From the NCBI RefSeq assembly GCF_023169885.1, contig NZ_AP025516.1, positions 3,885,501-3,949,500 of the forward strand: 64,000 nt of DNA, written 5' to 3'. Positions 22,311 to 39,883 of the stretch are shown here, piece after piece. Numbering within the stretch: position 1 is the first letter of the stretch; each line of letters starts with the position of its first letter. The notes beneath the pieces are model-generated. The model worked only from the letters and a program-made list of their open reading frames with translations. It was not told the DNA's origin and made no database searches. Origin of the DNA: Desulfofustis limnaeus. GTDB lineage: Bacteria > Desulfobacterota > Desulfobulbia > Desulfobulbales > Desulfocapsaceae. The translations under genes and the position numbers were made by a program.

Positions 22311-22397
22311 GCCGGAGTGGTGAAACTGGTAGACGCACTGGACTCAAAATCCAGCGGGAGCAATCCCATGTCGGTTCGATTCCGACCTCCGGCACCA
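22311..22397 (+). tRNA. tRNA-Leu(CAA), CCA encoded
   Basis: A complete class II cloverleaf: acceptor GCCGGAG pairing with CTCCGGC, an anticodon stem CTGGA/TCCAG with loop CTCAAAA (anticodon CAA), a long variable arm, the T-loop GGTTCGATTCC, and encoded ACCA. Its 3' end is the attachment site of the following island. Confidence 0.97.
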
Positions 22398-22398
22398 G
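22380..22398 (+). other. attL: island attachment site in the tRNA-Leu 3' end
   Basis: TTCCGACCTCCGGCACCAG is repeated exactly at 39865-39883. It covers the T-arm 3' strand and acceptor end, the usual core for tyrosine integrases. The integrase gene begins 164 bp downstream. Confidence 0.92.
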
Positions 22399-22561
22399 TC
22401 GACTCCCTGTAATGTCTTCGAAAGTCAATACAGGTCTGCAATAGCACAACATTTCAAGCAGCAATTTTCAGCAGTCGGTTCGTCGGTTTGCACAAAACGA
22501 CGAACCGATCTTGCACATTATCCTCGTTTCCGGCGTTTGAACTTTTACGAGAGGCCGAGAA

Positions 22562-24022
22562 ATGAGAATTCCAAACGTTCCTACCTATCTTGTCAAAGGA
22601 TTAAATTCGCGCTACTATTTCAGAATTATTGTACCGGCTGATGTCAGAAACGCTCTCGGCGGTCAGCGCGAGTACCGAAGAGCACTTAAAACAACTGATT
22701 TTCGGAAAGCGCTTCCCATGGCTTGGAGGGCGGCGGCTGAGTGCCATCGCTTATTTGAAAGGTGTAGAATGGGCTATGATCCGCTGAAAGAATCGCTTTT
22801 CAATACGCAATTACTGATTAAGCGCAAAACATTATCAGATGGTACTGTTCTTGAGGAATTTTCTTTTGATGATCCTGATGTCGAAAAAGATCTTAAGCGG
22901 CTTGATGCATATGAGAAGCAGCAAGCGACGAAGAATTTACAATTTCCCAAGCATTCGGTTCGGGAACCTGTCGATCGACGCCAAAACGGTTATTCCTCAG
23001 TCACATTGTCGGAGCTAGTCGAGAAATATACCGCAGAACGAATTTCCAGGAAAGCTTGGACGGAGAACACCAAAACTGAAAACGTTTCAGCATTTGCAAA
23101 GTTAGTCAGCATTGTCGGCGACCGCTCGATTGATGCTATAACAAGAGAAGATGCTACCCGGCTGCTTACGCTATTACAGAAAATGCCATCAAAGCGCGGA
23201 GGGACACTCTCAGCAAACGTTATTAACAAAAAGATTGGAATGCTATCTTCTCTTTATATTTATGCAATTGACAATCATTTAACAGAATATAACCCTTTTA
23301 AAAGCTTGCAAATAACCGTTGACGACCGTCCTGAGGACGCTCAAGACGCATATACTCTTGATGAGTTAAGGGCCCTTTTTAATCCTGGGTATTTCAAAAT
23401 TGATCGAGCAAGACCATCACGATTTTGGATTCCGATCCTAATGGCTCTAACTGGGTGCAGGCCTGGGGAATTAGCCCAATTAGAGGTGGATGATATTTTC
23501 GATATTGATGGCATATCATGCCTGCATATCAATGACTTGATGCAGCGGAAATCAAGGAATGCCATTAGGACAATCCCAATATCTGTCGAGTTGACACGTC
23601 TCGGCTTTTTGCGTTTTGTTGATCAACGTCGTCAAGAGTTGGAATCCGATAAAAAACTGAAGGACAAGCGGTTGTTTAGAGAGCTTAGCCCTAATCGTCC
23701 AAAAAAAGCTGGGGCGGTGTCAAGCTGGTGGAACGAAACACACCACAAACACTGTCAAGTAGTGAGAACTTCATTGATTACTCGGGGGAGGGTAACGAAA
23801 AAGAGACACGTGAGCTTGTATTCTCTTCGGCATTTTGTACAAACTAAGTTCAGAGCCGAAGGAATAGCGGAAACTATTTCCGCTGAAATTGTCGGTCACG
23901 ACAAAGGGGAAACAACGGGGTATAAAACATACGCCAAAGGAGGTCAGCTTAAACCTCTCGTTGAAGCGATCAAGGTGCTGGACTATGAGGATGCTCTTGC
24001 AAATGTTCCTGTGTGGCCGTAA
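22562..24022 (+). CDS. tyrosine integrase of the tRNA-Leu island (DUF6538-type N-terminus)
   Basis: Catalyses recombination between the tRNA 3' end and the circular element. The 486-aa protein has an N-terminal DUF6538-like domain (VPTYLVKGLNSRYYFRIIVP), a core-binding SAM-like domain around residues 155-270, and a catalytic domain with Arg in TGCRPGELAQLEVDD, the HxxR-like box LYSLRHFVQTKFR, GHDKG, and the nucleophile Tyr in GYKTYAKGG. It sits directly next to attL and reads inward. Codon use and GC content are lower than in the backbone. Confidence 0.93.
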   Translation: MRIPNVPTYLVKGLNSRYYFRIIVPADVRNALGGQREYRRALKTTDFRKALPMAWRAAAECHRLFERCRMGYDPLKESLFNTQLLIKRKTLSDGTVLEEFSFDDPDVEKDLKRLDAYEKQQATKNLQFPKHSVREPVDRRQNGYSSVTLSELVEKYTAERISRKAWTENTKTENVSAFAKLVSIVGDRSIDAITREDATRLLTLLQKMPSKRGGTLSANVINKKIGMLSSLYIYAIDNHLTEYNPFKSLQITVDDRPEDAQDAYTLDELRALFNPGYFKIDRARPSRFWIPILMALTGCRPGELAQLEVDDIFDIDGISCLHINDLMQRKSRNAIRTIPISVELTRLGFLRFVDQRRQELESDKKLKDKRLFRELSPNRPKKAGAVSSWWNETHHKHCQVVRTSLITRGRVTKKRHVSLYSLRHFVQTKFRAEGIAETISAEIVGHDKGETTGYKTYAKGGQLKPLVEAIKVLDYEDALANVPVWP

Positions 24023-24169
24023 TTTTTACTAAAAGTGTAATTATTGTAAAACAGGTCTGGAGGTAGGCGTTAAACAGGCTTCAGTCGGTTCAAATTCTCT
24101 CCAAGAAATTGCAATCATACCGGGCGCACGCGACGCGGAAACCCGGCATTATTATCATAGCAATATAAT

Positions 24170-25501
24170 GGGCACCTTGAATAATGCCATTTTCAATAAA
24201 CGCGTTGTTGCGCCGTAAAAATCTGCACTCATGAACACCGTTTTTCGTCAAACTATGACGGCCATGAGACGATTTTCTGCTCTTTTGATTTCACGCATCG
24301 CTCTTTCAGGAGCCGGTGAGCGCCGTCTATGTTCTGAAGGCGCACGTCTGCTGTTAAGCGGTGGCCAGCAGTGCAAAACGGCTCACATTGTAAGCCAAAT
24401 TGCGCAAGCCGATCTTGGCCCTGATTCTGACCAAGCCAATACCCCGCATCAGTGTGCTGCCGGTACGCATGGCCATCACGCCGAAAACGTGTTCGACTCG
24501 GCTGCGGATCTTCGATCTGGTCCGATTCGCCTGGCGCTCTTCGTCGGTCAGCTTTCGGTGCCGGTTGCCCTTCACCTGCAGGTGTTCTTGAAACCCTTGT
24601 TGTGCCAACTCCTGCAACGATTCTTCGGAACGGTAGGCAGAATCGGCCCAGACGTCATTACTGGTATTCTCCGGGTCAAGCAGCTCGGTAAACACTTGAC
24701 TGTCATGGACACTGGCGTCGGTGACCTCATAGCTGCGAATGAACTTGTGACCGACATCGATACTGACATGGTTCTTGTAGCCAAAGAACGCTTTGCCGTT
24801 CTTCTTGGTCCAGCGGGCATTGGTATCTTTTTGCCGGCGCTTCGGTTCGTCCCATGAGGCGATGGGCTTGCCGGCTTTGATATCTTCGTTTTCTTCCCGG
24901 CTGTTGCGCTGGCTGGGAACGCGGATAATGGAGGCATCGACAATCTGGCCCTTTTGAGCGCGAAAGCCATGCTCACGGAGGAACTGATCGAACTGGGTAA
25001 ACAACAGTTCAACCACGCCGGCTTTGGCCAGTTCATCCCGGAAGCGGAAGATGGTGGTGGCATCGGGCACCTTGGAACCTTCACGAATACCAAGGAACCG
25101 GGAAAACGAATAGCGATCGAGGATCTGATACTCCATGGCTTCGTCGGAGAGATTGTACAAAGACTGGAGAATCAGGATCTTGAACAGCAGGATTGGGTCG
25201 TAGCCCTTGGCACCGGCTGGAGATTTACGCGGTTTCTCGAGTGCACGGTTGATGAGGACACGGAACTGTTCCCAATCAACCACCTTATTGAGTTCGATCA
25301 GGGGATCACCGGCTTTATCGATCCGGGAGAGTCGCTTGTGATAATCGAAGAGTCCGAATTGTTTCATGGCGCTATCTCTGAAAAGGGGAATGAAATGGTG
25401 ATATCATAACCAACGTGTTGATATTAATATATTTTCAGAGATTTTTCGCTGATTTTTTGAATAATTTGCCAGATTTTTAGCCCCTATTTTTCAAGGAACC
25501 C
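24170..25501 (-). mobile_element. IS5-family insertion sequence, copy 1
   Basis: Ends GGGCACCTTGAATAATGCC and GGGTTCCTTGAAAAATAGG (read inward), flanked by the 4-bp duplication TAAT at 24166-24169 and 25502-25505. It is diverged by a few residues from copies 2 and 3, and lies in opposite orientation inside the island behind the integrase. Confidence 0.92.
24354..25367 (-). CDS. IS5-family transposase, copy 1
   Basis: A 337-aa DDE transposase of the IS5 group: N-terminal helical domain (LFKILILQSLYNLSDEAMEYQI), first Asp in GQIVDASIIRVP, second Asp in DVWADSAYRSEE, and Glu in RSRVEHVFGVM. The start MKQFGLFDYHKR differs from the MTQFG of the other copies. The frame is intact. Shadow frames on the opposite strand are not genes. 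Confidence 0.95.
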   Translation of the reverse strand: MKQFGLFDYHKRLSRIDKAGDPLIELNKVVDWEQFRVLINRALEKPRKSPAGAKGYDPILLFKILILQSLYNLSDEAMEYQILDRYSFSRFLGIREGSKVPDATTIFRFRDELAKAGVVELLFTQFDQFLREHGFRAQKGQIVDASIIRVPSQRNSREENEDIKAGKPIASWDEPKRRQKDTNARWTKKNGKAFFGYKNHVSIDVGHKFIRSYEVTDASVHDSQVFTELLDPENTSNDVWADSAYRSEESLQELAQQGFQEHLQVKGNRHRKLTDEERQANRTRSKIRSRVEHVFGVMAMRTGSTLMRGIGLVRIRAKIGLRNLAYNVSRFALLATA

Positions 25502-25862
25502 TAATGAATTCCTAAAAATGTAGAAATCTGGACTCGATCTGACAAACAAGGGTGATAAGGTTCAGTTTATCATGACAGCCACCATCAGCCAGCCATCCCA
25601 AGATTAACAGGAAGGTCAACTGATAGTCAGGACAAGACGGTTTATCTTGCCAGGCTTTCCGTTAACTTTTAAACTGAGTGCTATCAGGAAACCGGTTATC
25701 ATGAGAATAAGACATGATATCCGGCCAGGTAGCGGCAACGTGCCGGGAATGGCAATGGCCCCCCCCCGACCATCCGCCTGAATGATATCTGGAAAACTAG
25801 ATGATAACTTGATGTCCCCGCTACGCGCTCCTGATCCTGGCCGTTATGCACTACGGTGATCC
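25502..25862. other. non-coding gap between IS5 copy 1 and the PIN gene
   Basis: No convincing frame on either strand. It contains a run of nine or more C at about 25760 and otherwise nothing I can name. It may hold the promoter of the PIN gene. Confidence 0.4.
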
Positions 25863-26861
25863 ATGCACGTATTCATTGACACCAACATCCTTCTCAATTT
25901 CTATCACTATACGAGTGACGAACTCGATGCCCTGAACAGCGTCTTTGCCTCGCAGGACCAAGGGGCAGCTAACGTATATCTCACAGATCAAGTTCGCGAT
26001 GAATTTAGGCGCAACCGGGAGTCGAAGATCAAGGATGCCCTGCGCCGGTTCAGGGACGTGAAGGTCGCAGCTCCGTTGCCCTCGTTCATGCGCGGCTACG
26101 AGGAATACGCTGAGATTCGCGAGCTCAGCAACACACTGCGACATAGGCTCAGTTCCATTCTTGAGAAAGCGAACGAGGACATCAAAAACAAGGCACTACA
26201 AGCGGATAGCCTTATCAACGACATCTTCGACCGATCAGAAGTCATCGAAACTACGGGAACGCTATTTCAGCGAGCCAAAATGCGCATGGAAATCGGAAAT
26301 CCTCCTGGAAAGCAAGGTTCTTTGGGGGACGCGATTAATTGGGTAACTTTATTGGACGCCGTGCCCGAAAACGAGCCAATCCATATCATTAGCGAAGATG
26401 GTGATTTCTATTCCGTACTGGATGATAAGGTTATTAACCCATTCTTAGAAGAAGAGTGGCGCTCTAGTAAGAACTCCGGCATACGCGTCTATCGCACCTT
26501 GTCCGAGTTCATGACGGAACATTTCGACGGTGTCGCGCTGTCCTTCGACCAAGAGAAGCGCGCCCTTATAGATGATCTAGCTGAAAGCGGCAGCTTCGCT
26601 CGGACGCATAGCCTGATCGCAAGGCTCAATCAATATGGCTACTTCTCGCTTGAAGAAGCTCGGTTAATCCTCGATGCTGCGGCGTCTAACGGTCAAGTAG
26701 GCATGATTGTAACGGATTATGATGTTTCCGATTTTCTTGCAAAGGCGGTGCTTCCGCATAGGGATAACTTGCATGATGCCGAATACCAGGGAATCTTGGA
26801 CGACGTCGCAGCAGAGCAAGCTGAACGCGAAGATGCGTTACGGCCACATGAGCGGAAGTAG
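25863..26861 (+). CDS. PIN-domain (DUF4935-like) ribonuclease candidate
   Basis: The N terminus MHVFIDTNILLNFYHY carries the first catalytic Asp of PIN nucleases; VYLTDQVRDEFRRN follows with the second acidic position, and SEDGDFYSVL supplies a late Asp cluster around residue 180. A C-terminal region of about 130 residues is of unknown fold. At 332 aa it is far longer than a VapC toxin and has no visible antitoxin gene, so a DUF4935-type RNA-processing or defence nuclease is more likely. It is cargo inside the tRNA-Leu island. Confidence 0.75.
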   Translation: MHVFIDTNILLNFYHYTSDELDALNSVFASQDQGAANVYLTDQVRDEFRRNRESKIKDALRRFRDVKVAAPLPSFMRGYEEYAEIRELSNTLRHRLSSILEKANEDIKNKALQADSLINDIFDRSEVIETTGTLFQRAKMRMEIGNPPGKQGSLGDAINWVTLLDAVPENEPIHIISEDGDFYSVLDDKVINPFLEEEWRSSKNSGIRVYRTLSEFMTEHFDGVALSFDQEKRALIDDLAESGSFARTHSLIARLNQYGYFSLEEARLILDAAASNGQVGMIVTDYDVSDFLAKAVLPHRDNLHDAEYQGILDDVAAEQAEREDALRPHERK

Positions 26862-26990
26862 GCTTTCCTGCAAATCCAATGTTAGAAGCAGGATTTGAAA
26901 CATCGCTGTGATAGGTTCTCACGCTGGACGCATATTGTAATTACTTTGGCATAGTAGAGGTTAATCAAAAATACATTTCTATCATCTAAT

Positions 26991-27566
26991 ATGGGTGAAT
27001 TTATGGGCTTTTTTGATGATTTTGATCCAAATTTTGATTACGTTAAAGGCGTTCCTATTGAAAACCAAGTCGATTCTGCTCAGATAATGCAGAATTCAGT
27101 AGTTGGTCTTTCGGCAACAGCTATCATTTCTGCGGTGGTTTATCTAGTTTTACGCCCAAAAGGAAAAGCGAAGACACCAATAGATCTTGGAGGGAAATGG
27201 GCCGCAGCAGGTGGAGCCATTGGAACTCTTTGGATGTTTCCTAGTATCGGTTTGAGAATTACAAACCCTCTATCCATACATATTGAAGACATATTATTAT
27301 GGATATTTGTGTCCATCTTTGTCGGCTTTTTGTTCTTCTGTGTTGGGTGGTTAATAGGTAAAAAAAGGTTTGCAGTGATCAAAACGGCGGTTGATTCACG
27401 AGCTTCAGATGGCAGAATTAGAACGAAAATTAATCCATCTTCTGAGGCAGAAATTGGGTCGATTGAACAGAAACTTATTAATATTAAATCATTACTAGAA
27501 AAGGGACTAATCTCCGACGAAGATTATAAGATGAAGAAGGATGAGATTCTTCGGAAATTATCTTAG
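26991..27566 (+). CDS. membrane protein with C-terminal SHOCT domain
   Basis: A 191-aa protein with hydrophobic helices at about residues 36-54 (VVGLSATAIISAVVYLVL), 67-85 and 96-120, then a C-terminal SHOCT motif (KLINIKSLLEKGLISDEDY) of the kind that oligomerises or tethers. The gene is AT-rich against the backbone, indicating separate acquisition. The function is not known. Confidence 0.7.
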   Translation: MGEFMGFFDDFDPNFDYVKGVPIENQVDSAQIMQNSVVGLSATAIISAVVYLVLRPKGKAKTPIDLGGKWAAAGGAIGTLWMFPSIGLRITNPLSIHIEDILLWIFVSIFVGFLFFCVGWLIGKKRFAVIKTAVDSRASDGRIRTKINPSSEAEIGSIEQKLINIKSLLEKGLISDEDYKMKKDEILRKLS

Positions 27567-28079
27567 CATCTATTTGCCGGAATTCTATATAACCCCCACG
27601 ACGGGGCGTCACAACGAAGCATGAAAATTTGCAGTTTCATATAAAAACAAAAGTAGTAATTCAGCTATATCATTCCAGATTACGCATGAATCCTCAGCCA
27701 TCTTCAGAATCCGAGCCGGGAACGGCTGAGTTATCACGGTTATGAAACGAAACCGCTACAGCAACTAACGTAGATCAAAGCGTCGGTTGAACCGATAACA
27801 AAATTCTGCAAGATACCGTTCATGAGGATTGCAGTCCAATAGTGAAATAAACTTTGTATAACCAACGGGTGAACTTGACCGGGCAAAGCAACGCGCCCTG
27901 CAAGTTACCCGCACGTTAAAATCGCCCTATCGAAAATCTAATTTGTTTGAAATCCCTGAAATAAAGACTTTTCCTGTCTCTTGAAGTAGCTGTCCTGTCG
28001 GCTTTCAGGTTGTATTGCGACTAGACTAATCAGTCGTTTGTGTCAGAGATCGAATTCAGATTTCCACACCAAAAAGCAA
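27567..28079. other. 513-bp gap without a supported gene
   Basis: Both strands lack a frame of credible length or ribosome site. No repeats or clear terminator were seen. The nearest genes are the SHOCT protein (rightward) and a leftward pair at 28080-28767. Confidence 0.4.
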
Positions 28080-28328: not shown

Positions 28329-28344
28329 GCCATCCTCCTATTAA

Positions 28345-28767
28345 TCAAAGTGGTATCAAGTCAGACTCGTCGGTTGAGATCTCAGCTTTGTAAATACCTT
28401 TCTTCTTCCAATCCCTCAAGTAACCAGAACGCAAGTTTCCACTCACACTGGAAGATTCTGTGAATTTTTCGGCATTCCATTCGTGCATTTCGACGGTTCC
28501 GTTCGTTTTATAGAGATGAAGGTAAGCCCTCCTCTTTTCCAGCAGAGCCCGCTTGAACTCTTGCTCGTCGTTGTCCGGATAGTATCGAATTTCTAAAGTC
28601 CGCGGTCGCTCTTGTGTCATCTCCGGAGTTAAGCCGCTTGTCTCGACTACTTCGCCCTCGTAATAGTCTAGGATTCGCTGGATTACATCGGCAGGGGTGT
28701 CAAATCCTTCAGCATGGACACTCAAGCGGTCATACAGCTCTATGGGAATTCTGATTACTTTACTCAT
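28345..28767 (-). CDS. hypothetical protein with ribbon-helix-helix-like N-terminus
   Basis: A 140-aa protein. The first 35 residues (VIRIPIELYDRLSVHAEGFD, then TPADVIQRILDYYE) match the pattern of RHH/SeqA-type DNA-binding N termini. The remainder (about residues 60-130) includes aromatic-rich YLHLYKTNGTVEMHEWNA and a basic GYLRDWKKKGIYKAEIS segment resembling some replication- or restriction-associated proteins. It pairs with the downstream 82-aa gene. Not a recognised family; a regulator or toxin-antitoxin-like module is possible. Confidence 0.6.
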   Translation of the reverse strand: MSKVIRIPIELYDRLSVHAEGFDTPADVIQRILDYYEGEVVETSGLTPEMTQERPRTLEIRYYPDNDEQEFKRALLEKRRAYLHLYKTNGTVEMHEWNAEKFTESSSVSGNLRSGYLRDWKKKGIYKAEISTDESDLIPL

Positions 28768-28851: not shown

Positions 28852-29829
28852 CTAAATTCCCCTTCTGCCGATAATATCTCTATCGCGCGGCGCGGAGGAT
28901 TCAACCACCCCCGCCGGAACGATCAATTCCCCCGCAGCAATCTCGTCCGTCTTCGTTGAATCACCAACAGCACCGTTCACTAAAACCATGCCTTTGCAGC
29001 TGCGAGCAGTTCCCCGAGAGCCGATAGCCGCAACGATCCGACCGAACACAGGTCCCACCGTGCCGCGCACCACCACATTCCGCGACGCCGTGAACCAGCG
29101 GAGACCGGCAGCGGCGACGAGATCAGGCCGAAAGTTCCCCGGCCGCAGCAGATAATCACACGCGAGAAAGGACGGATCATCGCACCCTTTGAACATTATT
29201 CGGTAATTGTACGAACGATACGTCGTCACCGCCGTCCCTCCGACAAAACGCAACCGCGCCGCTATTTCCTTGAATTGCGGCATATCATATCCTTTCGCAG
29301 CTCCCGGCCTCCTGAACAGTCGATACAGCGGGACATCGTGAAACAGCACAACGTGCAGGTGGTATCTCCCACGCCGGTCGAACGAAACGAATTTGATCCA
29401 CGAGACACGCACGCCATACCGTTTCAACTTACGGAAATGTTGGGCGAGGGTGTGAAAGAGTTTATCAGTCTCAGCGGGTGACGGCGTGTTTATCACAAGA
29501 TGTGAGGAAAACGGCAACCGCGATCGGAGCGACGCAACCAACCGGCGCAATTCTTCCCGCAACCGGCCCACCAACAGCGCGGGGATCTCCGGCATCGCAT
29601 AGGCGGGTCGAGATCTTTCCCTTCCATCATCGCAATCCTTTGCATCCGAGAGCAATAACGGGGGCGTCGAGGAGGACGACGCAGGGGGGCGTGTTTGTTC
29701 CACAACCCCCACCACATCGGAAGAGAGGCGACCAGGATTTCCGGTCGGTTCGATTTCGGCGGCGATGGAGTCGGTACGGTGAGCGCCAGCAAACCATGGT
29801 ACACGATACTCGAGGCCGCGATTATTCAC
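28852..29829 (-). CDS. candidate HUH-type replication endonuclease
   Basis: Contains SWIKFVSFDRRGRYHLHVVL, in which the hydrophobic-His-x-His-hydrophobic core matches motif II of rolling-circle (HUH) Rep proteins. About 75 residues later, FLACDYLLRPGNF could be the catalytic-Tyr motif. The first 80 residues are low-complexity and may not be translated: the listed start is a GTG, while the ATG at 29595 (MPEIPALLVGRLREEL) precedes the conserved part. It is divergent from the piPolB gene, with the repeat array between them. The assignment rests on short motifs; a non-catalytic relative is possible. Confidence 0.5.
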   Translation of the reverse strand: MNNRGLEYRVPWFAGAHRTDSIAAEIEPTGNPGRLSSDVVGVVEQTRPPASSSSTPPLLLSDAKDCDDGRERSRPAYAMPEIPALLVGRLREELRRLVASLRSRLPFSSHLVINTPSPAETDKLFHTLAQHFRKLKRYGVRVSWIKFVSFDRRGRYHLHVVLFHDVPLYRLFRRPGAAKGYDMPQFKEIAARLRFVGGTAVTTYRSYNYRIMFKGCDDPSFLACDYLLRPGNFRPDLVAAAGLRWFTASRNVVVRGTVGPVFGRIVAAIGSRGTARSCKGMVLVNGAVGDSTKTDEIAAGELIVPAGVVESSAPRDRDIIGRRGI

Positions 29830-30117: not shown

Positions 30118-30248
30118 CGCCCCCGGGCGAGATAATCCCCCCGAGCGATGCTAGCCCCCCCCGGAGCGAATTAAACTCCCCCGGACGGAGTTAAATCCCC
30201 CGGACGGAATCAAGCCCCCCCGGCGAGAGTAAGGCCCCCCGGAATAAG
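30118..30248. repeat. seven C-rich iteron-like tandem repeats upstream of piPolB
   Basis: C-runs of 5-8 nt begin at 30120, 30137, 30155, 30178, 30197, 30215 and 30235, each followed by a purine-rich GGA/GAGCGA-type segment and often TTAA; spacing is 17-23 bp. The best-matching units share CCCCCGGACGGA. The opposite strand therefore has seven G-tracts with quadruplex potential. There is no CRISPR-like pattern of unique spacers. The place, between a Rep-like gene and a DNA polymerase gene, suggests an origin or a regulator array. Confidence 0.75.
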
Positions 30249-30301
30249 TGAACGGTGGCCGTGGCGCACGGATCGACGCGTAAAATTAACTCTAAACAAA
30301 T

Positions 30302-30376: not shown

Positions 30377-33115
30377 ATGAATGAGCTGACCCAGGCTGTC
30401 TTTGAATGGTATCGAGAGGGCGCGAATCGGCGGCACGAGTCGCTGTCTCCCAGGGAACGGACGTTTGATACTCCGGCCCTCCTCTGGTCTCGGTTCGGCG
30501 AGTTTGTCGGCCGTACGCTTGAACGTCTCACCGCTGGCGGCATGCTCGATACTGATTCATGCGTGCCGGGACTGATTTTTGCCATCGACCAGCGATACTC
30601 TCTGAACAATCGAGGCCGGAAGGTCGAGCGGTATCATGTGCGGTTGAAAAATGTCTTGTTTGAGCGGGAGGGCATCGACCTGACCGGGGCGAACAGGAAA
30701 TATCACGATGGTCGGGATTTCGGCGTAATCGGATACGACATCGAATATCAACCCAACGAGAAAGAGCCGCGCAAGCAACGACTTCTCTCTCATCAATTCT
30801 GTTTCGACGGTGGTCCGGGAAGGCGGCTCGGTTTAGTGCTCGACACGAATATCCGTTTTACCGATAGCACGCTCAAGATGTTCATCGCCAACGTTGCAGA
30901 ACAGTATGGTGCGTTCCCGGTCAAACGGTGGATCATATTCGCGCATTTTTCAGTGGCGGAAGGGTCTTGGGTGGACTCCAGCAAGGTCCGGTTGATCGAG
31001 CGAGTCGGGAAAACGTGGGATAAGTCGATCAAGCTTTTTGTCCGCAAGTCCGAGGTGATCAAGCCGGACGGCAAAAAGAGCAAACGGCAGGAAACGGTCA
31101 AGATGGAATTCGCCGACACCGTACACTACGGTGCGGGAAGCCTTGCCGGTATTGCCGGTAGTGTGGGACTGCAAAAGCTCGCTCCTATTCCGTTGGAGTT
31201 CAAGGACGCGAAATGGTTCAAGCGCGAGTGCGATGCCGTCTACAAGCAGTTCGAGGTCTTTCGTGACCTGAAACCGTTGGAATTCTATCGCTACGGATTG
31301 CGTGACGCGATTATCACCGCCGGTATTCCTATTATTCTGCATTCCGTGTTTGGGGTGGAGAACGCTTTTCAGAAACGGTCTGCCCGATATGCCGAGGAAT
31401 ACATTGCGGGGTGGTTGAGCCAGACGTTTGCCGGCGGGAGAGGGGAGTGGCAAACCATACTCGGACAGCATAGGCTGGTGTTCCCGACAAAGGATAAAAA
31501 GAAGGACCGGGTCATCTGGGAGCCTGACCGGTTACAGCAGATGATCCTCCAACAGTGGTACAAGGGAGGCCGTAACGAGGCGCGGAAGGTCGGATATTTC
31601 GAGGGCGAGATTCACTATCACGACATGAAAAGTGCCTATCCGACAGCGATAGCGGCCCTCCGCAGCGATTACAATTTCAGTCTGGTCAAGGTCCGTACCC
31701 GTAACGACGGAGCGGCGGAACGGGTCAAGCAGTTGATGAGCCGGGGGCCCTTTCAGCCGCACGGGATCGTGGCGTATATCCGGTTCAAGGAAACATGCCG
31801 GACACCGATGGCCCCGATCAGTGTGCACAACGGGATCATATACCCGATGGAGACTGAGGGGCAGGTGATCTGCTGGCCGGAATACTGGACCGCGAAAAAG
31901 CTGGGTATCATTGAAGAGGAGTACATTCTTGCGTTTTATGAGTTTGAGGAATTGAAGACCCGGGGATTCCCGAACCACATTCTCAGCATGCTGCAGAAAC
32001 GTGATGAAGCTCCGGCGTTCTATAAATCGATTTTGAACTACCAGACCGGGAAATTCGTGCAAGGCCGAGACCGGAGGAAAAAAATTCCGTATTCGAAAAT
32101 CTGTTGTCCGGCGCTCGGTGCCTACATCACCTCTGCGACCCGGGCGGCGGCTGCGGAAATCGCCAACCTGAATCCGTACCATGCGATAACCACCGACGGC
32201 ATCGTCAGTCCCAATGCGAATTTGACTTTCGGCGAGATCAACAGGCGGCTGGCGGAACGATTGCAAGAGATTAACTGGCAGTGGATGAAAGACGAGTTTA
32301 CGGGAGACAAAGCGGTTATCTGGAAGACACGGGGGTATATTCTGTCCAATTCACAGGTTGACCCGGAAGGACCGGCAAAGAAGCGGTTCAAGCAGGCGCG
32401 GATGGGTCTGCAAGGCGAGGAACCGGTCGATATTCTGCAGCAAGTTAAGGACGGAATTGGGGTGCGTCGTTCGGCGAAGACATTCAAAGATCTCGATTTC
32501 GGTGAGATCTTTCATTTCATTGAACGAGAGACGAGGGTCAACCCGAACTACGATTTCAAATATGCCATCGTCAAAGATTCGGTTAAAGAAGCGAAGGTCG
32601 AAATAGATGGGGTTGTGATCGAGAACATGCCGTGTTTCGAGACGCGGCCGTTGCGTAATATCAACGAATACTACGACCTGCGGGCCATCAGCGAGCGGAT
32701 GATGTACCACACGTTACGTGAGGAGGATAAAAAGGGGTTGTCGTCGAAGGATCTCGAATCGTTGGTGTTGACCGGGTTGCTCAACGACCGGCGATGTCGC
32801 CATATGGTCTGGGAGTTTCGCAAGCGGTTGGCGCGGTGGGTTGATCATCAGGAAGTTACCGCCCACCATAACAGCATTGCGAAATGGCGCACGCTGCCTA
32901 CGTTCAAAATACCGGGCATTTTCGGTAAGGTTGAGGCATTTAGGCCGATCTTGGAGAAAGAGGCGCAGATCATCAAGGACGAGGAGAGGCGCAGACAGGT
33001 ATTGGAATGTGTCATGCATGAAATGGCGGCAGACGTTGAGACGGAGAAGCGTGATGCCGTCGACGTTGAAGACAAGGACGTTGATACTGACGAGGGAGAT
33101 GAATCGGAAGAGTGA
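30377..33115 (+). CDS. primer-independent family B DNA polymerase (piPolB)
   Basis: Replicative DNA polymerase of the element, 912 aa. The 3'-5' exonuclease domain has ExoI GYDIEYQ (D121, E123) and ExoIII YGLRD (Y306, D310); the ExoII segment IFAHFSVAEG is atypical. Polymerase motifs: PolA YHDMKSAYP (D416), PolB KSILNYQTG (550-558, pattern Kx3Nx3G), PolC AITTDG (D607), then KTRG at 650-653. KTRG in place of the usual KxY marks piPolBs, which can start DNA synthesis without a primer. A C-terminal region of about 250 residues ends in an acidic tail. No clear ribosome site precedes the start. Protein-primed PolB is the alternative, but no terminal-protein gene was identified. Confidence 0.82.
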   Translation: MNELTQAVFEWYREGANRRHESLSPRERTFDTPALLWSRFGEFVGRTLERLTAGGMLDTDSCVPGLIFAIDQRYSLNNRGRKVERYHVRLKNVLFEREGIDLTGANRKYHDGRDFGVIGYDIEYQPNEKEPRKQRLLSHQFCFDGGPGRRLGLVLDTNIRFTDSTLKMFIANVAEQYGAFPVKRWIIFAHFSVAEGSWVDSSKVRLIERVGKTWDKSIKLFVRKSEVIKPDGKKSKRQETVKMEFADTVHYGAGSLAGIAGSVGLQKLAPIPLEFKDAKWFKRECDAVYKQFEVFRDLKPLEFYRYGLRDAIITAGIPIILHSVFGVENAFQKRSARYAEEYIAGWLSQTFAGGRGEWQTILGQHRLVFPTKDKKKDRVIWEPDRLQQMILQQWYKGGRNEARKVGYFEGEIHYHDMKSAYPTAIAALRSDYNFSLVKVRTRNDGAAERVKQLMSRGPFQPHGIVAYIRFKETCRTPMAPISVHNGIIYPMETEGQVICWPEYWTAKKLGIIEEEYILAFYEFEELKTRGFPNHILSMLQKRDEAPAFYKSILNYQTGKFVQGRDRRKKIPYSKICCPALGAYITSATRAAAAEIANLNPYHAITTDGIVSPNANLTFGEINRRLAERLQEINWQWMKDEFTGDKAVIWKTRGYILSNSQVDPEGPAKKRFKQARMGLQGEEPVDILQQVKDGIGVRRSAKTFKDLDFGEIFHFIERETRVNPNYDFKYAIVKDSVKEAKVEIDGVVIENMPCFETRPLRNINEYYDLRAISERMMYHTLREEDKKGLSSKDLESLVLTGLLNDRRCRHMVWEFRKRLARWVDHQEVTAHHNSIAKWRTLPTFKIPGIFGKVEAFRPILEKEAQIIKDEERRRQVLECVMHEMAADVETEKRDAVDVEDKDVDTDEGDESEE

Positions 33116-33410: not shown

Positions 33411-34031
33411 ATGGCAAAAAGGAAGACTATAAAAAAATCAATTCACAGTAAAATCGTTGCTAGACAAAAATGTCTTCAATATATATTGGAGGATAACTGG
33501 ACTGAATTAGACAGATATTTAGATAAAAATTCGTGGATATTCAAAATGAGTTTCGGTAGAATGTATGGCTCGGAGAATGATCGTGGTATAATGGAACTGT
33601 TAATGTTGCATGGCGGTGATCAACAATTGATATCCAAATATTCAGAAAAGGAACATCATGATCCTTCCCTCGGCATATATTATTATGCTGGTGAAAAGAT
33701 GGATCAGCAACTTCTTAGTTTAATGAAAAGGTATTTTAACAATCAATTGTATTCTTATATTTCTAATTTTAACGTCGGTCTAAAAGAGAATTTACTATTA
33801 GGATACATAACGGCCGAAAAAGCAAGAATAATAGAGGACAAATTCAATTTGTATAAAATGCTGATTGATATCCTTAGTAAGGAAAATAAATCTGATGAAT
33901 TTTACAATCTTGCTAGGAATGTACTTTTGTTGTCATCCTTAAAAACAGGACTTGTTAACTCGTATAAGGACATACAAACCATAATAAATAATCCTGTTCA
34001 AAAACGAAAAAATAATTCTTCTATTATTTAA
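33411..34031 (+). CDS. hypothetical protein, AT-rich
   Basis: A 206-aa basic, mostly alpha-helical soluble protein (start MAKRKTIKKSIHSKIVARQK) with no recognised family. The segment RGIMELLMLHGGDQQLISKY recalls an ankyrin-type helical hairpin, but no repeat series follows. Its codon use is far more AT-rich than the adjacent piPolB gene, so it was probably acquired separately. Confidence 0.6.
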   Translation: MAKRKTIKKSIHSKIVARQKCLQYILEDNWTELDRYLDKNSWIFKMSFGRMYGSENDRGIMELLMLHGGDQQLISKYSEKEHHDPSLGIYYYAGEKMDQQLLSLMKRYFNNQLYSYISNFNVGLKENLLLGYITAEKARIIEDKFNLYKMLIDILSKENKSDEFYNLARNVLLLSSLKTGLVNSYKDIQTIINNPVQKRKNNSSII

Positions 34032-34081
34032 TAGCATTAGTTCTATCGGGATATTTACCAATTGGTAAAGTCGTAAAGATA

Positions 34082-34106: not shown

Positions 34107-34123
34107 GCCACCCGACGGAACTA

Positions 34124-34276: not shown

Positions 34277-34376
34277 TTTGTTTCCTCCTCGCAAAAGTTA
34301 ATGAATACAGCACGATATATAGAATGATCGTACCTTGCGGGGACGGGTTTGCAACAACAAAAACACGGAAAAACAG

Positions 34377-35108
34377 TTATATAGAACGTCTTTTCTTTGT
34401 CCGTTTAGGCTCATATTCCCGTACGCGTTGCGCGCTTTCCAACTCCTCCTTGAGCTGCAGCACCTCGATATGACCGGGCGAGAGTTTGTTGTCGCTCGCG
34501 CTGGTGTCAGCCAGCGGCGGTTTCGGCTTGGGTAGTGCGCCTGTCATGTCGGGGAAGGTTTTGCCGATGTCGTCGAGGATGGCTCGCAGCTCTCCATGCA
34601 ATCGCATGTTTCGTTTTTGGATCTCTTCGACCGCGACCGGATTTTCAGGCAACTTCTTCTGGAGTGCTTGCGAGCGGCGATTCAACAGTTTTTGGACGGC
34701 GTCGATATAATAGATCAGATAGATCTGATTTTGCTGGAGCAGGTCGACTTCTCGACAGCAGGATACAGTCAGCTCCCGCAACCTGTTCCGTTTCGATGCA
34801 ATGTTTTGGTCGAGCCGGTCGGCCTCGATTTTTTGGGTCCTCAGTTTGTGCTCCACCTCAGCCTTGATTCGTTGCCGGACGTCGTCCGTCAGCTCTGTTT
34901 CGATTCTCACCTTCTCTACCCTTTCGAGGTAGGCGACGTACCCAAGCGCGGCGATTAACACGAGCGCGACGAGCAGTGTCAAAAAAGGGCGGTAATATAT
35001 CGCCTTAGCGATGTTAAAAAGCATCGTTTCGACATTACCCGTGAAAATACCCCCAACGATAACGCCGCCCGCCGCCGCTAACCCAAGCCTCCAGAAGGCG
35101 TTTTTCAT
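34377..35108 (-). CDS. membrane protein with long coiled coil
   Basis: A 243-aa protein with two hydrophobic segments at the N terminus (about residues 8-24 and 42-60, LTLLVALVLIAALGYVAYL), then about 120 residues of heptad-rich charged helix (RIETELTDDVRQRIKAEVEH onward) and a Pro-rich, basic tail (PKRTKKRRS). The topology resembles membrane-anchored scaffold or conjugation-type accessory proteins. The start overlaps the preceding gene's stop by 4 bp. No family recognised. Confidence 0.65.
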   Translation of the reverse strand: MKNAFWRLGLAAAGGVIVGGIFTGNVETMLFNIAKAIYYRPFLTLLVALVLIAALGYVAYLERVEKVRIETELTDDVRQRIKAEVEHKLRTQKIEADRLDQNIASKRNRLRELTVSCCREVDLLQQNQIYLIYYIDAVQKLLNRRSQALQKKLPENPVAVEEIQKRNMRLHGELRAILDDIGKTFPDMTGALPKPKPPLADTSASDNKLSPGHIEVLQLKEELESAQRVREYEPKRTKKRRSI

Positions 35109-35494
35109 GATAGGCCCTCCATAACACGCTTAAGGTATCCGGTTGAAATGTGAAACCTGCGATAATGCTTGAGATATTCGGCGATTTCGACATACGACGC
35201 ACCGTTCTCGCGCAGCTTCCGCGACTCCGGCCAGTGGCGAAGCAGGAAGAGTCGCCCCTTTTTCCCGAGACGCGGTGCCTTTACGGTTACGCGTATGCGG
35301 CGAAGGCGTTCGGCGATTTTGTCGGCGTCAGGTAGCGATTGCTCGGATTCCTGGGCGATGCGAACAGCAGCCAAAAATCTTGCGTAATCGGAGCCGGTCT
35401 CCTCGATGACCTTGCGCCTCGTGCCGGTCGTGGTGTTCGCGAAAAAGCGCAGCAGCGCCTGCTCTACCAGTTGTTTTTGTGGGGTGGTTGTCAT
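35105..35494 (-). CDS. small DNA-binding-like protein of the leftward island operon
   Basis: A 129-aa basic protein. The C-terminal 45 residues (ENGASYVEIAEYLKHYRRFH, then ISTGYLKRVMEG) read as a helix-turn-helix that recognises DNA, and the N-terminal half is helical. The ATG at 35494 is preceded by AAAGGA; a longer frame upstream lacks a ribosome site. It is the first gene of the operon with the coiled-coil membrane protein and the 50-aa protein, overlapping the former by 4 bp. Confidence 0.65.
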   Translation of the reverse strand: MTTTPQKQLVEQALLRFFANTTTGTRRKVIEETGSDYARFLAAVRIAQESEQSLPDADKIAERLRRIRVTVKAPRLGKKGRLFLLRHWPESRKLRENGASYVEIAEYLKHYRRFHISTGYLKRVMEGLS

Positions 35495-35842
35495 GTCGTT
35501 GTCCTTTCGTGGTTGTGGTTCGTTGAACAAAACGCCAGTTTTTGTGAGCATGGCGGCAGCTCGGTGCGCGGAATTGTGTCCGGCTCACCTTGGGAAGTTC
35601 GCTGATTGAATCGGCCCAGTTTCCCGTACACTGGATGGAGAATTAAACGCTTCTCCATCGGCGTTGATGATATTGATATATCGAGGCGCAAATGTGAGGA
35701 GACTCCGCGAAGACGAAGCGCGCCAATGGCGCGTTTACTTGCGTTGACCTCAAGTAAACGCTGGCCATTGGGGAGAAATCGAACGGCGCTAAAACCGGAA
35801 CACGAAACCAGATTAGTAGGGGCTGTAGACATTGGAGGTACT

Positions 35843-36739
35843 ATGCGAGGAAATCCACGAAGTCAATCAGGGCAAATCTTTCGGCGGCTCAATCGAATCG
35901 GTGAGAGCCGCCACGAAGCGAAAACGGCGGCGAAGGCTGCAGGTGTTATTGGTAGTCATCGCATGGCGCAATCGGTTGGTATATTCTCGTATGCGACCAT
36001 GACAAGGTATCGAGCAGTAGCCACAGAATTCATTGCGTGGTGCCGTGATGCACACGGTATCAGCGACGCTGCGAAGATCAGCGCGGAACATGTCCAAGAG
36101 TGGCTGCAGATAAAAATCGCCGCCGGCGTGCGATACAAGACTTATCTCACGTACGCCGCCGCGCTTGGAAAAGCGTCAGCAGGTCTGCGAGCGATCTACG
36201 GCGAGGGGTATGATTGGGCGTCAGCGATAAATCAAACGCGAGAGCAGGCGAGGATATTCCTAGATCGTCGCGTCAAAAGTCGAGGTTATACGAAACCGGC
36301 AGCGGTTGTCGAACGGTTGGAGGGGGTGTATCAGATTGCAGCGTCGCTGCAGCTATACGGAGGGGCGAGGGTGCGCGAGGTCTCGCGGTTGACGGAGCGA
36401 CATTTACTCGGTGGCGGCAAGATACTGTTGACGAATACCAAAGGGGGGCGACGTAGAATGATGATGGTACCGCCGGAGGTTTACGATCGTGTTGCTGAAG
36501 TGATCGAACAGCAGGGAGAGTTTCGGTTTGATTATCGGAGGTATTTGGAGTCGTTGAAAACCTCGTGTGCGGAGGTCGGCGAAAAATATCAGGGGACGCA
36601 TGGACTGAGGTGGAATTTCGCTCAGATTAATGTTAGGAGTGCACAAGAATTGGAGATGGGTTATTTTAACGCGTTGGAGTTGACCAGTAATCGCATGGGG
36701 CATAGTAGGGAGTTGGTGACTGAGCATTATCTTCGTTAA
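35843..36739 (+). CDS. second tyrosine recombinase of the island
   Basis: A 298-aa tyrosine recombinase of a divergent type. Catalytic residues: Arg in YGGARVREVSRL, HxxR in THGLRWNFAQ, then MGHSRELVTEHYLR with the final His and the Tyr nucleophile. The start at 35843 follows GGAGGT by 4 nt; the longer frame upstream is not supported. It is distinct from the integrase next to attL. It may assist excision or resolve multimers; E. coli pipolins also carry more than one recombinase (family knowledge). Confidence 0.82.
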   Translation: MRGNPRSQSGQIFRRLNRIGESRHEAKTAAKAAGVIGSHRMAQSVGIFSYATMTRYRAVATEFIAWCRDAHGISDAAKISAEHVQEWLQIKIAAGVRYKTYLTYAAALGKASAGLRAIYGEGYDWASAINQTREQARIFLDRRVKSRGYTKPAAVVERLEGVYQIAASLQLYGGARVREVSRLTERHLLGGGKILLTNTKGGRRRMMMVPPEVYDRVAEVIEQQGEFRFDYRRYLESLKTSCAEVGEKYQGTHGLRWNFAQINVRSAQELEMGYFNALELTSNRMGHSRELVTEHYLR

Positions 36740-36755
36740 CCTATAGGGAGGAAAC

Positions 36756-37331
36756 ATGAAGAGACTAACCTTGCTCCTTTTCTTGTTGGTCTTAATACCT
36801 TTTTTCGGGTGTGCGAAAATCGAAAGGTTGCCACAGAGAGAGCATATCGCGTCTGAGGATATTCCGCGACTGTCTGCAGAAAATGGCCGATTGATAGTTT
36901 TCTTAGGAGAAATGACAATTGATGATCTGATCGACTATACCTCACCATATGCGGGTATAGATGGGAAGTTATTTTTGGAGAATGAATATGTTGATTATAT
37001 GAGTAATGATGAAGCAGCTGTTGTTGATGTAAATCCTGGTTTATATACCTTGCATTGGAGAATATACACCGGGAATGAGGAACTTGATTCTGAGCATACG
37101 TCGGTACCTTTTGAAATATCAATTAGTGCTGGCGATATTAAATACATTAAATGCAATACTGTAGTTAAGGTTGGGGGTGGACCAATCGGGGCTTTGGGTG
37201 GAGTGATTGGAGGAGCTATAGCTGGAGCCACTTCTAATACCTTTGATTATATGGAAATAGAAAGTGATTTGGATTCAGAAGAGGTGAAATCGTTAAAAAT
37301 CGCCTCTTATGTCAATAAAACAGAATACTAA
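36756..37331 (+). CDS. lipoprotein, DUF2846-like
   Basis: A signal peptide with lipobox-like FFGC near residue 19 is followed by a beta-rich domain (RLIVFLGEMTIDD, KLFLENEYVDYM, PGLYTLHW) and a Gly-rich hydrophobic segment (GGGPIGALGGVIGGAIAGA). This pattern is that of DUF2846-type envelope lipoproteins. It starts 17 bp after the recombinase, preceded by GGAGGA. The function is unknown. Confidence 0.65.
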   Translation: MKRLTLLLFLLVLIPFFGCAKIERLPQREHIASEDIPRLSAENGRLIVFLGEMTIDDLIDYTSPYAGIDGKLFLENEYVDYMSNDEAAVVDVNPGLYTLHWRIYTGNEELDSEHTSVPFEISISAGDIKYIKCNTVVKVGGGPIGALGGVIGGAIAGATSNTFDYMEIESDLDSEEVKSLKIASYVNKTEY

Positions 37332-37425
37332 AAATATTGTGTATTAAGTGTTCTTATCTGATTGCTCTGAGATAACTTGTCTAGTGACTAAGGAAGAGTG
37401 AAAATTAGCAAGGTCAATTAATAAA

Positions 37426-38463
37426 ATGAGCACGAGTCTAATAGCTATGGACGGTAAATACAAACTCTTTCTAAACAATGAAGATGTTTATTTGACAATA
37501 GAAGAAATTCAAGCTTTTATTGATTCTAATAGAATATATGCCGAAACAAGAGTGTATGATGAAGATATTAAGGCTTGGACGACCTTGGGAGAGCATAATA
37601 TTTTGAAGAAATATTTTGCTAATGGTAATCAAATGGAAATGAAATCTTCAAAAGGAAGTGAAAGCGATATTAGGATGGTGAAATGCCCAGAGTGCGGAAA
37701 AGAAAATGCGTTCTACAAAGTTTATTGTATGCATTGTAAAAAGTACTTGGAGCAACAGTCAAATACTTCTTCTGTTAATGAGAAAATTGAAAAGAATATT
37801 GGGGCCTTGGTTACGTGCCCAAAGTGCCAGAAACAGTTTTCCAACAGAGCCGACATGTGTCCAAAATGTGGATATATTCCGGTTCTCCAATGTATTGTTT
37901 GTAGTAAACAAATATCTAAAGATTCAAAAATTTGTCCTGAATGCGGTGATCCTGATCCCTTTGCAAGTTCTGCAATATCTGACACTAAGATAACTAGTGG
38001 TGCCTCGCACAAGTCTCCTGTTTCCTTGTCTAAATCGAATAGTAATATAACGAATTTTAGATCTGTTGACTGCCAGCAGATTGGCAACTCCTTAATGCGG
38101 ACATTATTTTCAACCGAAGGCCGTATAGCACGCCGAGATTTTTGGAAATATTGTGTTGTCTTTTTGTGGTTTCCATTAATTTTTCTGTATTTACTAGCTC
38201 AAATTTTTCCTGATTCTATTTTGCTTGTTTTCTATTTTTTATTTGCTATTTTCGCTTTTTGGCCATCTATTGCTTTGCAAGTTAAGCGATGGCACGACCG
38301 TGGAAAATCTGCACTATGGTTAATGTTAAATTTCATCCCTGTTATAGGCACTATTTGGATAATTATTGAGCTAGGATTTTTGAGAGGATTTGCTGGAAGC
38401 AACAAATACGGTAATGATCCTCTAGCTGATAGACTGTATATAGAAAAAATGACTACGAAATAG
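37426..38463 (+). CDS. zinc-ribbon and DUF805 membrane protein
   Basis: A composite 345-aa protein. Residues about 10-65 resemble a GYF_2-type domain (YKLFLNNEDVYLTIEEIQAF). About 84-190 hold three Cys4 zinc ribbons (CPECGKENAFYKVYCMHC, CPKCQKQF...CPKCG, CIVCSKQI...CPECG). About 228-340 is a DUF805 membrane domain (FSTEGRIARRDFWKY, ALQVKRWHDRGKSALW, GSNKYGNDPL). The domain mix suggests membrane-linked sensing or scaffolding; no function is known. AT-rich, like its neighbours. Confidence 0.75.
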   Translation: MSTSLIAMDGKYKLFLNNEDVYLTIEEIQAFIDSNRIYAETRVYDEDIKAWTTLGEHNILKKYFANGNQMEMKSSKGSESDIRMVKCPECGKENAFYKVYCMHCKKYLEQQSNTSSVNEKIEKNIGALVTCPKCQKQFSNRADMCPKCGYIPVLQCIVCSKQISKDSKICPECGDPDPFASSAISDTKITSGASHKSPVSLSKSNSNITNFRSVDCQQIGNSLMRTLFSTEGRIARRDFWKYCVVFLWFPLIFLYLLAQIFPDSILLVFYFLFAIFAFWPSIALQVKRWHDRGKSALWLMLNFIPVIGTIWIIIELGFLRGFAGSNKYGNDPLADRLYIEKMTTK

Positions 38464-38644
38464 TCAAAGAAAAATAGCGCCTACGTGCCTTGCAAAACAA
38501 TGCTGCAAAAAAAATATTGATGAACGCGGAGGTTTCTTAATATTGGTAGTTCTATTGCCATTTATGATTCTATCCTTCATGGTGGCTTTTTGGCTGATTT
38601 TTTCTTAGCTTTATCGTGTTGGGCTAAATTTCCCAAAAAAAAGG

Positions 38645-39322
38645 ATGTTTACAGGACTTGACGATAAACAGAAACGCTTGATTGAGGCTTGGTTTGCCGG
38701 AGCTACCACGTCAAACGGCGATGAGTATGGGCGATTCATGTCGGCTTGGATCGCATTCAATGCATTTTGTTATGCGCGCTTCGCAGATAAGGCAAGTAGG
38801 CGACGCCCAGACCTCTCCGAAGATAAAGGACTTTCCGGAATCTCTGGACAGGTGCCAGCGAAGGGTACTCTTGAATTGCGTTCTGACGGGCGAGTGCGTC
38901 TTAGAATCGAAAAGCCGGGTCGGATACAGATCGACATTCGCGAACGTTACACAGAAGACATCGTCTTTGCGGAATTCTCTCGGGAATATAGCCAGTTTTT
39001 CACTACGTGGCTCCTAGAGTCGCCTTTCTGTTCAGCTCGAGATGAGTTTCTAGCCTCACTGAAGCGATCAAACGGATATTACGTCATCAACATGTTGCGC
39101 GTTGCACAATATGACGAACAGGCTCCAATCGGAGATCTGTCAAAAAGGAATGTAGTCGTTGCTATCACCGAACCAAATGACCTTGGCCAACTCGTAGATG
39201 CGCTTTATCAGGTCCGCTGCAACGTCTTTCACGGAGAAAAAGTACCTGGCGATCTTAATGACGACCGTATTGTAAAGGCTGCGCGTCCACTGCTCGTCGA
39301 ACTTCTTCGCCACTTGATTTGA
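38645..39322 (+). CDS. HEPN-like protein at the distal end of the island
   Basis: A 225-aa helical protein whose C-terminal segment ALYQVRCNVFHGEKVP has the Rx4H motif of HEPN ribonucleases (R and H near residues 197 and 202); the N-terminal KRLIEAWFAGAT...AWIAFNAF is a typical HEPN first helix. HEPN proteins cut RNA in toxin-antitoxin and antiphage systems. No partner nucleotidyltransferase gene is adjacent. It is about 540 bp before attR, a usual cargo position for defence genes. Confidence 0.6.
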   Translation: MFTGLDDKQKRLIEAWFAGATTSNGDEYGRFMSAWIAFNAFCYARFADKASRRRPDLSEDKGLSGISGQVPAKGTLELRSDGRVRLRIEKPGRIQIDIRERYTEDIVFAEFSREYSQFFTTWLLESPFCSARDEFLASLKRSNGYYVINMLRVAQYDEQAPIGDLSKRNVVVAITEPNDLGQLVDALYQVRCNVFHGEKVPGDLNDDRIVKAARPLLVELLRHLI

Positions 39323-39864
39323 GATTCCAGCCCGACGAGTCAATAAACTTGATATGAAATCGATAATGACAACTGAGTGATGAGATGATTTTGACAGTCA
39401 GCGCAGGCGTCGCTCACGTCGAATTCGAACCGTCCTCTTAACGCTCCAAGGTGAGGAGTATCGTTGTTCGATAAGAAGGTCACCTGAAATTCTTGTTAGT
39501 CTGTTAGCACTTATATACTTGTAAAAAATTACCTTCTATCACAATCTACACTGAGATTTATTTGAATCAGAATTGATGTTTTAATTACATATAAGACATC
39601 CGAGAATACTAGAAAAATAACTATACAAAAATATAAATGAGGGATAGTCCTCCCTATGTGATTCCCGGACAGGGACTCACATTTACACTAATTGATCGTG
39701 CATATAACATCGTTTTGGCCGTTTTCCTTTACGTTTTCAGGGATATCGACTAGACTGGACCCATACACAAAGAGTTGCATTAACGTTGCACAAACGTCGG
39801 TGGATAAAAAATTTAAGCTGTTAATGTTGTGTTGTTTTTAGTGGTGCCCCGGACATCGTTCCCT
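39323..39864. other. AT-rich gap before attR
   Basis: No supported gene in about 540 bp on either strand. The last 25 bp lead into the attachment core. Accessory binding sites for the integrase may lie here but cannot be recognised by eye. Confidence 0.4.
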
Positions 39865-39883
39865 TTCCGACCTCCGGCACCAG
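39865..39883 (+). other. attR: distal attachment repeat of the island
   Basis: Exact 19-bp copy of the tRNA-Leu 3' end (TTCCGACCTCCGGCACCAG). The preceding sequence does not form the rest of a tRNA. It marks the right boundary of a 17.5-kb insertion. Confidence 0.92.

Follow-up and report, generated by a model that had tools for sequence, protein, structure and literature searches.

The pipolins of Escherichia coli (H10407 is a carrier; Flament-Simon et al. 2020, PMC7385651) combine a primer-independent family B DNA polymerase (piPolB) with tyrosine recombinases and variable cargo, and they are integrated in tRNA-Leu with direct repeats that overlap the tRNA gene. S. epidermidis and L. fermentum are given as hosts of plasmid pipolins by the authors of ExplorePipolin, who apply a piPolB HMM cut-off of E ≤ 1e-50, note relaxases on plasmid pipolins and describe the natural role of piPolB as unclear (PMC9710591). 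The window analysed here, 64,000 nucleotides of Desulfofustis limnaeus (contig NZ_AP025516.1), contains a 17.5-kb unit that shares with the E. coli elements the kind of polymerase, the tyrosine recombinases, a variable cargo, the tRNA-Leu site and the overlapping repeats. This unit is very probably an integrated pipolin, a judgement that takes in its presumed excision, nicking and de novo synthesis. Three things are reported as new: the piPolB lineage, which is divergent; a HUH-like nickase candidate, transcribed divergently from the polymerase gene; and an array of seven iterons between the two genes. The features that carry the argument are as follows.

22311 to 22397, plus strand: tRNA-Leu gene (anticodon CAA), the integration site (ARAGORN, Rfam RF00005)
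22380 to 22398, plus strand: attL, the copy of the 19-bp direct repeat in which the tRNA ends (exact repeat)
22562 to 24022, plus strand: tyrosine integrase with DUF6538 and Phage_integrase domains, beside attL (Pfam)
28852 to 29829, minus strand: HUH-like nickase or Rep candidate (PF23343 at E = 0.0047, below the cut-off; homologue in SB20)
30120 to 30243, plus strand: seven C-rich iterons of about 20 bp, a putative origin, in the region between the HUH-like and polymerase genes
30377 to 33115, plus strand: piPolB, 912 aa (Pfam DNA_pol_B_2 at 8e-7; trees; motifs)
35606 to 36739, plus strand: second tyrosine recombinase, catalytic residues present; its true start possibly lies downstream of the listed TTG
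39865 to 39883, plus strand: attR, a 19-bp direct repeat (exact repeat)
39892 to 39930, plus strand: hairpin read as the displaced host tRNA-Leu terminator, flanking host DNA that marks the original site (contiguous with the tRNA in a same-genus genome, G419)

The repeat that bounds the 17.5 kb, TTCCGACCTCCGGCACCAG, consists of the final 18 bases of tRNA-Leu, the sole tRNA called by ARAGORN in the window, and one flanking base. It occurs only twice in the window when both strands are checked, and 5e-7 chance copies are expected under a Markov-1 model of 2 x 64 kb. A first-pass annotation, made from the window sequence, had already described this exact repeat, a tyrosine integrase beside attL and a second recombinase inside, and all three descriptions hold. 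The DUF6538 integrase starts 163 bp past attL and has its catalytic residues, but the His of HxxR is replaced by Tyr. The second recombinase retains the full R-K-HxxR-H-Y set and has weak family matches (an integron-integrase model at E = 1.5e-5, far under its cut-off; a PHROG integrase at 5e-8; Pfam at 0.054).

An empty site confirms that the repeats are true junctions, as that annotation had supposed. A search for the tRNA-Leu segment across 93 family genomes gave matches in 77, and the best 30 loci were compared. The only other genome of the same genus in this set, G419, has its tRNA-Leu directly 5' of the sequence that in the window adjoins attR on the right, and the tRNA is followed by a hairpin, GCCCGGAGAGCC-N10-GGTTCTCCGGGCTTTTC, whose window counterpart lies at 39892-39930. 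This hairpin is read as the terminator of the tRNA-Leu gene itself. A hairpin with a T-run is found no more than 90 nt downstream in 23 of the 27 readable tRNA-Leu(CAA) loci (in three of the best 30 the 3' end or the DNA beyond it could not be read), and the window tRNA is among the four without one; shuffled downstream stretches give a hairpin in 1-4 of 27 over ten rounds. When arms of 10 or more are required, 19 of 27 loci have such a hairpin and every one of ten shuffled rounds gives 0; the DNA to the right of the window attR passes. Because the window tRNA has no hairpin, the attR flank has one and G419 is uninterrupted, the element is seen to have separated the tRNA from its terminator. 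The comparison shows insertion into the tRNA-Leu(CAA) gene at its 3' end, with the tRNA rebuilt by the element's own att copy. Similarity to G419 reappears further right at 40381-40423 (98%) and 40818-40936 (94%), within and just past an hsdM remnant, and on the left it extends for just 136 nt or so.

The 912-aa polymerase carries Exo I (DxE), Exo III (YxxxD), motif A (DMKSAYP), motif B (GKFVQG), motif C (TTDG) and KTRG, a piPolB hallmark that is present in 7 of 10 aligned rows and replaced by KSRG, KTRV or RTRV in the remainder. The first-pass annotation had called all of these motifs intact, which stands for every one except motif C: the window reads TTD, and the first Asp is missing in all 10 rows. 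This loss is itself a piPolB trait, according to Kazlauskas et al. (PMC7544198). To that list can be added an Exo II Glu where most piPolBs have Asp; Glu is found in the window, SB20, G063 and G427 (the last by eye, in its first open reading frame, ORF) and Asp in the five other rows that cover the position.

Phylogeny places the enzyme with the piPolBs. A 19-row tree (IQ-TREE, LG+C20+F+G4) comprised the polymerases of the window and of the SB20 and G427 genomes, seven other piPolBs, seven protein-primed and two replicative enzymes. The seven piPolB references were E. coli H10407, S. epidermidis pSE-12228-03, L. fermentum pLME300, S. warneri, Fusobacterium, Pseudosulfitobacter and G063, the last four called piPolB by similarity in the present analysis; the Pseudosulfitobacter row, retained, fills 48% of the tree columns, and locus L004 is represented in the trees by its second ORF alone. 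The trio and the seven piPolBs group at 100/99, apart from the protein-primed and replicative polymerases, and within this group the trio is joined at 99/97. The seven others form a group of their own (92/94), and the trio thus falls outside them. An 18-row tree gives 100/97 for the trio, 100/100 for all piPolBs and 82/91 for the others. By sequence, the trees show the window polymerase to be a piPolB and a sister lineage to the other piPolBs in this sample, a placement valid for the sample, since published piPolB diversity exceeds seven rows. Primer independence would follow from this kinship.

Pairwise comparisons convey how divergent the lineage is. Among 18 polymerases the window enzyme matches SB20 (49% identity), G427 (6e-34), S. 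warneri (7e-12), E. coli (8e-9), S. epidermidis (2e-8), Pseudosulfitobacter (2e-6), L. fermentum (1e-4) and Fusobacterium (4e-4); a single BLASTP comparison with the H10407 piPolB gives 24% over 272 aa at E = 5e-10. Identity to aligned piPolBs other than that of SB20 is about 18-27%. Two results pull against the placement: the protein-primed polymerase of PRD1 matches at E = 1.5e-4, level with the two weakest piPolBs (1e-4, 4e-4), and it adjoins the piPolBs in the 18-row tree (85/66). The phi29 polymerase gives 1.4, and the protein-primed rows of the 19-row tree cohere at just 57/53. The PRD1 match bears on the idea that the enzyme is a protein-primed polymerase that the island captured from a linear plasmid or a phage, which would also accord with Pfam giving DNA_pol_B_2 alone and with a 29-nt, 72% inverted repeat near both island ends (22440-22468, 39808-39836). 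Such a capture is scarcely credible given the grouping at 100/99, the KTRG, the missing Asp of motif C and family scans that return no capsid or terminal-protein match. A protein-primed origin of the polymerase is rejected on the 18- and 19-row trees.

Few relatives of the piPolB came to light. It is single-copy in the 4.23-Mb contig that contains the window (97.8% complete); searches of plasmids (E ≤ 1e-3) and phages (E ≤ 0.01) and peptide-pattern scans of IMG/VR found no relative, and a profile search gave no PDB match at E ≤ 0.01. A scan of species genomes returned one relative, Desulfobulbaceae bacterium SB20, whose family is also that of the window genome, in agreement with the deltaproteobacterial background proposed at first. 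The profile finds the polymerase in 3 of 257 class genomes and 2 of 395 genomes sampled from the phylum, the latter being the window's own and G063, which belongs to a different family; the G063 piPolB (1208 aa, L032 8125-11751) lies near an Arm-DNA-bind integrase and groups with that of E. coli (83/71). A putative damage-tolerance role for piPolB is cited in PMC9710591, and the polymerase could accordingly serve damage tolerance or repair in the host, with the island mostly a passive passenger. The patchy distribution in the class argues against this, as does the location of all three clade members in bounded islands with integrases, and we hold it to be quite improbable.

Those islands share an integrase but differ in site and content. 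In SB20 (= G436) the island spans C131:153269-198866, 45.6 kb between the 3' end of tmRNA and an 18-bp copy of it. Like the window element, it holds a polymerase, a homologous HUH-like gene and a homologous DUF6538 integrase, which adjoins the tmRNA; unlike the window element, it is larger, sits in tmRNA, carries an additional relaxase-like module and has no C-rich iterons in the stretches searched. Two tRNA-Leu copies are present in the same genome. The G427 island (C5:3240-32806, 29.5 kb), in a genome of the same family, resembles the window element in its same-clade polymerase, its DUF6538 integrase (ORF 3274-4842, at the left tRNA-Leu copy) and its tRNA-Leu 3'-end copies (3240-3303 and 32754-32806, 26 nt exact). 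It differs in its size, its lack of a HUH-like match and its polymerase, which is split across two ORFs, with Exo I DSE in the first, and has KSRG in place of KTRG. The left tRNA-Leu copy in G427 (L063 3240-3303) is without the 5' part of the tRNA, which suggests that islands stand in tandem at a single tRNA. All three integrases are homologous to one another (E 3e-34 to 1e-36; window against G427 3e-36, against G436 3e-34), which shows that one integrase family is used by three related elements.

The tRNA-Leu parallel with E. coli, by contrast, is probably convergent as far as sequences can tell. The window integrase has no significant similarity to the two integrases of H10407 (0.56; the best match of any of the three, that of G427, reaches E = 0.014), the anticodon is CAA here and UAA for K-12 leuZ, and the closest relative sits in tmRNA. 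The H10407 island starts beside yecA, which in K-12 adjoins leuZ (UAA); its leuZ site is deduced from this gene order and from the naming of Leu-tRNA in PMC7385651, as the tRNA falls outside the stretch read. Thus the first-pass remark that both use tRNA-Leu is correct, while tRNA-Leu use as a sign of kinship with E. coli pipolins is rejected on the anticodons, the integrases and the SB20 site. As in integrated pipolins, the window element has a tyrosine recombinase and att-like direct repeats that overlap a tRNA gene; it has neither the integrase type nor the tRNA-Leu(UAA) of the E. coli subtype. Further differences are that uracil-DNA glycosylase is not among the Pfam matches of the window island, and that no HUH-like gene is annotated in the H10407 stretch read. 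The pipolin identity first proposed is nonetheless upheld by the place of its polymerase in the piPolB clade, apart from protein-primed and replicative enzymes, together with the tRNA junction.

The HUH-like and polymerase genes are divergently transcribed, and between them lie the iterons (CCCCCGGACGGAnTTAAA-like). Seven iteron cores are seen, spaced 17-21 bp apart, where 0.65 are expected, and none of 2000 Markov resamples reaches seven, for a core pattern picked after inspection. The HUH-like protein has an H-hydrophobic-H motif (HLH) and a Tyr, Y226, aligned to the Tyr of its SB20/G436 homologue, with which it matches at BLASTP E = 3e-7. Its codon-position GC (0.61/0.51/0.61) is less periodic than that of the polymerase (0.56/0.38/0.67), so the coding status of the ORF rests on the SB20 homologue. 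Profile searches detect this protein family in 2 of the 93 genomes of the taxonomic family and in 2 of the 257 of the class (the class-wide search scored at most eight candidates per genome), and both carriers have the window-type polymerase; the SB20 gene was first spotted by its proximity to the polymerase, so that the independent part of this co-occurrence is the absence elsewhere. The HUH assignment is weak.

Together, these elements suggest a model. The DUF6538 integrase, perhaps with the second recombinase, would excise the element as a circle. The HUH-like protein would nick this circle, probably within or close to the iteron array that separates its own gene from that of the piPolB, and nicking would start rolling-circle replication or transfer and expose single strands. 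The piPolB may then copy the exposed strands de novo, without host primase, such that the nickase starts one strand and the polymerase makes the other. This division of labour is favoured because a primer-free polymerase beside a primer-making nickase would otherwise look redundant. Excision, nicking and priming are inferred here. That the piPolB sister lineage works as a two-enzyme replicon, in which a new family of HUH nickases starts rolling-circle synthesis at the C-rich iterons while the piPolB both primes the opposite strand and finishes it, is in our view possible though doubtful.

Known piPolB plasmids offer a second way to read the same genes. A piPolB, as in the window element, is present on pSE-12228-03, p3GD01, pLME300 and Fusobacterium pSB006B, each of which also has a gene for a relaxase, a Mob protein or a Rep3 initiator; relaxase or Mob genes are present on all five piPolB plasmid records read. 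These plasmids differ in being circular and in carrying genes annotated 'recombinase family protein', whereas the window element is integrated; its HUH-like gene is not recognised as a relaxase. On pSB006B the piPolB-like gene (L007 3468-4724) accompanies a Rep3 initiator and a Mob_Pre gene. An apparently truncated Pseudosulfitobacter piPolB (427 aa) on a 276-kb plasmid has IS66 just upstream (L009 9350-13362) and is adjoined by mobC and relaxase genes. The SB20 and G427 islands, for their part, have in common a relaxase-like protein (65% identical; the G427 copy matches MobA_MobL at a sub-threshold E = 0.019) and two partner genes (57%, 31%). The plasmid genes and this module would fit replication or conjugative mobilization alike. 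The HUH-like protein could be a mobilization relaxase, not a replication initiator, and the island mobilizable, with the piPolB making the complementary strand in the recipient, a task akin to that of conjugation primases. The window island lacks the SB20/G427 module, the matches of its HUH-like protein point to the Rep family PF23343, and no oriT was identified in the element, although no search was aimed at one; mobilization keeps a substantial chance all the same, if a less than even one.

Several results weigh against a replicon built on a HUH nickase and a piPolB. The PF23343 (REP_ORF2-G2P) matches of the window and SB20/G436 proteins (0.0047 and 0.0073) are both below the cut-off, the window protein has no meaningful PDB match, the AlphaFold model built from two sequences could not be used (pLDDT 33.6), and tblastn against plasmids and phages returned nothing at E ≤ 1. 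The gene is absent from G427 although the entire island is on the contig, and the C-rich array was not found in three SB20 stretches searched. Pfam scans of the window island reveal no relaxase, none is annotated in the H10407 stretch read, and PLSDB types three of the five piPolB plasmids as non-mobilizable.

The remaining genes of the island are mostly cargo.

24354 to 25367, minus strand: IS5-type DDE transposase (Pfam; similar copies elsewhere in the window)
25863 to 26861, plus strand: PIN_12-domain protein, cargo, candidate RNase (Pfam; C-terminal PADLOC PDC-S34 match at E = 2.7e-12)
26991 to 27566, plus strand: protein with a SHOCT-like C-terminus, probably membrane-bound (by eye) (Pfam, below the curated cut-off)
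28345 to 28767, minus strand: small possible ribbon-helix-helix (Arc-like) regulator, 3' of the HUH-like gene (weak: NF047386 at E = 1.7e-5, below the cut-off; phrog_6506 at 0.091)
33411 to 34031, plus strand: AT-rich cargo gene, function unknown (codon-position GC; without a Pfam match)
34377 to 35108, minus strand: unknown protein, overlapping the next gene by 4 bp (family scans)
35105 to 35551, minus strand: unknown protein (sub-threshold Pfam match only)
36756 to 37331, plus strand: lipoprotein-like, weak DUF2846 (Pfam)
37426 to 38463, plus strand: DUF805 protein with a double zinc ribbon (Pfam)
38645 to 39322, plus strand: unknown protein (without a Pfam match)

Such a content might be taken for that of a decaying, immobile remnant, as there is an IS5-type transposase inside the island and several cargo genes have no Pfam match. 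This is unlikely: the integrase, second recombinase and polymerase are open with catalytic residues retained, and the att copies are identical across 19 bp. The transposase is one of three copies, 97.9% identical, at 24354-25367 (inside the pipolin), 49486-50496 and 59063-60073, which suggests recent activity of the insertion sequence (IS).

The surroundings differ from the island in composition, with GC of 0.54-0.66 across the left flank at 7-22 kb and 0.38-0.56 within. Matches in the left flank include DAP epimerase, DHDPS, DapB, HPPK, transaldolase, a lytic transglycosylase and a pgsA-like CDP-alcohol phosphatidyltransferase, followed by an IS110 transposase. The pgsA-like gene (19871-20440) lies 5' of tRNA-Leu(CAA), as it does in 16 of the 29 other loci of the best-30 set; K-12 leuZ is likewise near pgsA. 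The hsdM remnant right of attR (39992-40795) has an hsdM-like fragment, recognised by eye, in the same place in G419 (L069 4259-4612), and the two are read as an older restriction-modification island adjoining the same tRNA. Further right, another tyrosine recombinase (250 aa, 47183-47935) is possibly part of a second island.

Among the literature matches listed (10 of 316) for piPolB or primer-independent synthesis with these taxa, two are pipolin papers, and neither names Desulfobacterota or Deltaproteobacteria; later subscription papers are outside this scope, and no priority for piPolB in the phylum is claimed. The locus presents a compact candidate set of origin, nickase and polymerase: an integrated piPolB lineage outside those sampled, accompanied by a divergently transcribed nickase candidate and iterons. 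A full-length divergent polymerase widens the enzyme class, with a possible practical use in DNA amplification. If the two-enzyme replicon is true, the element would replicate free of host primase, and piPolB would be supplied with a natural role.

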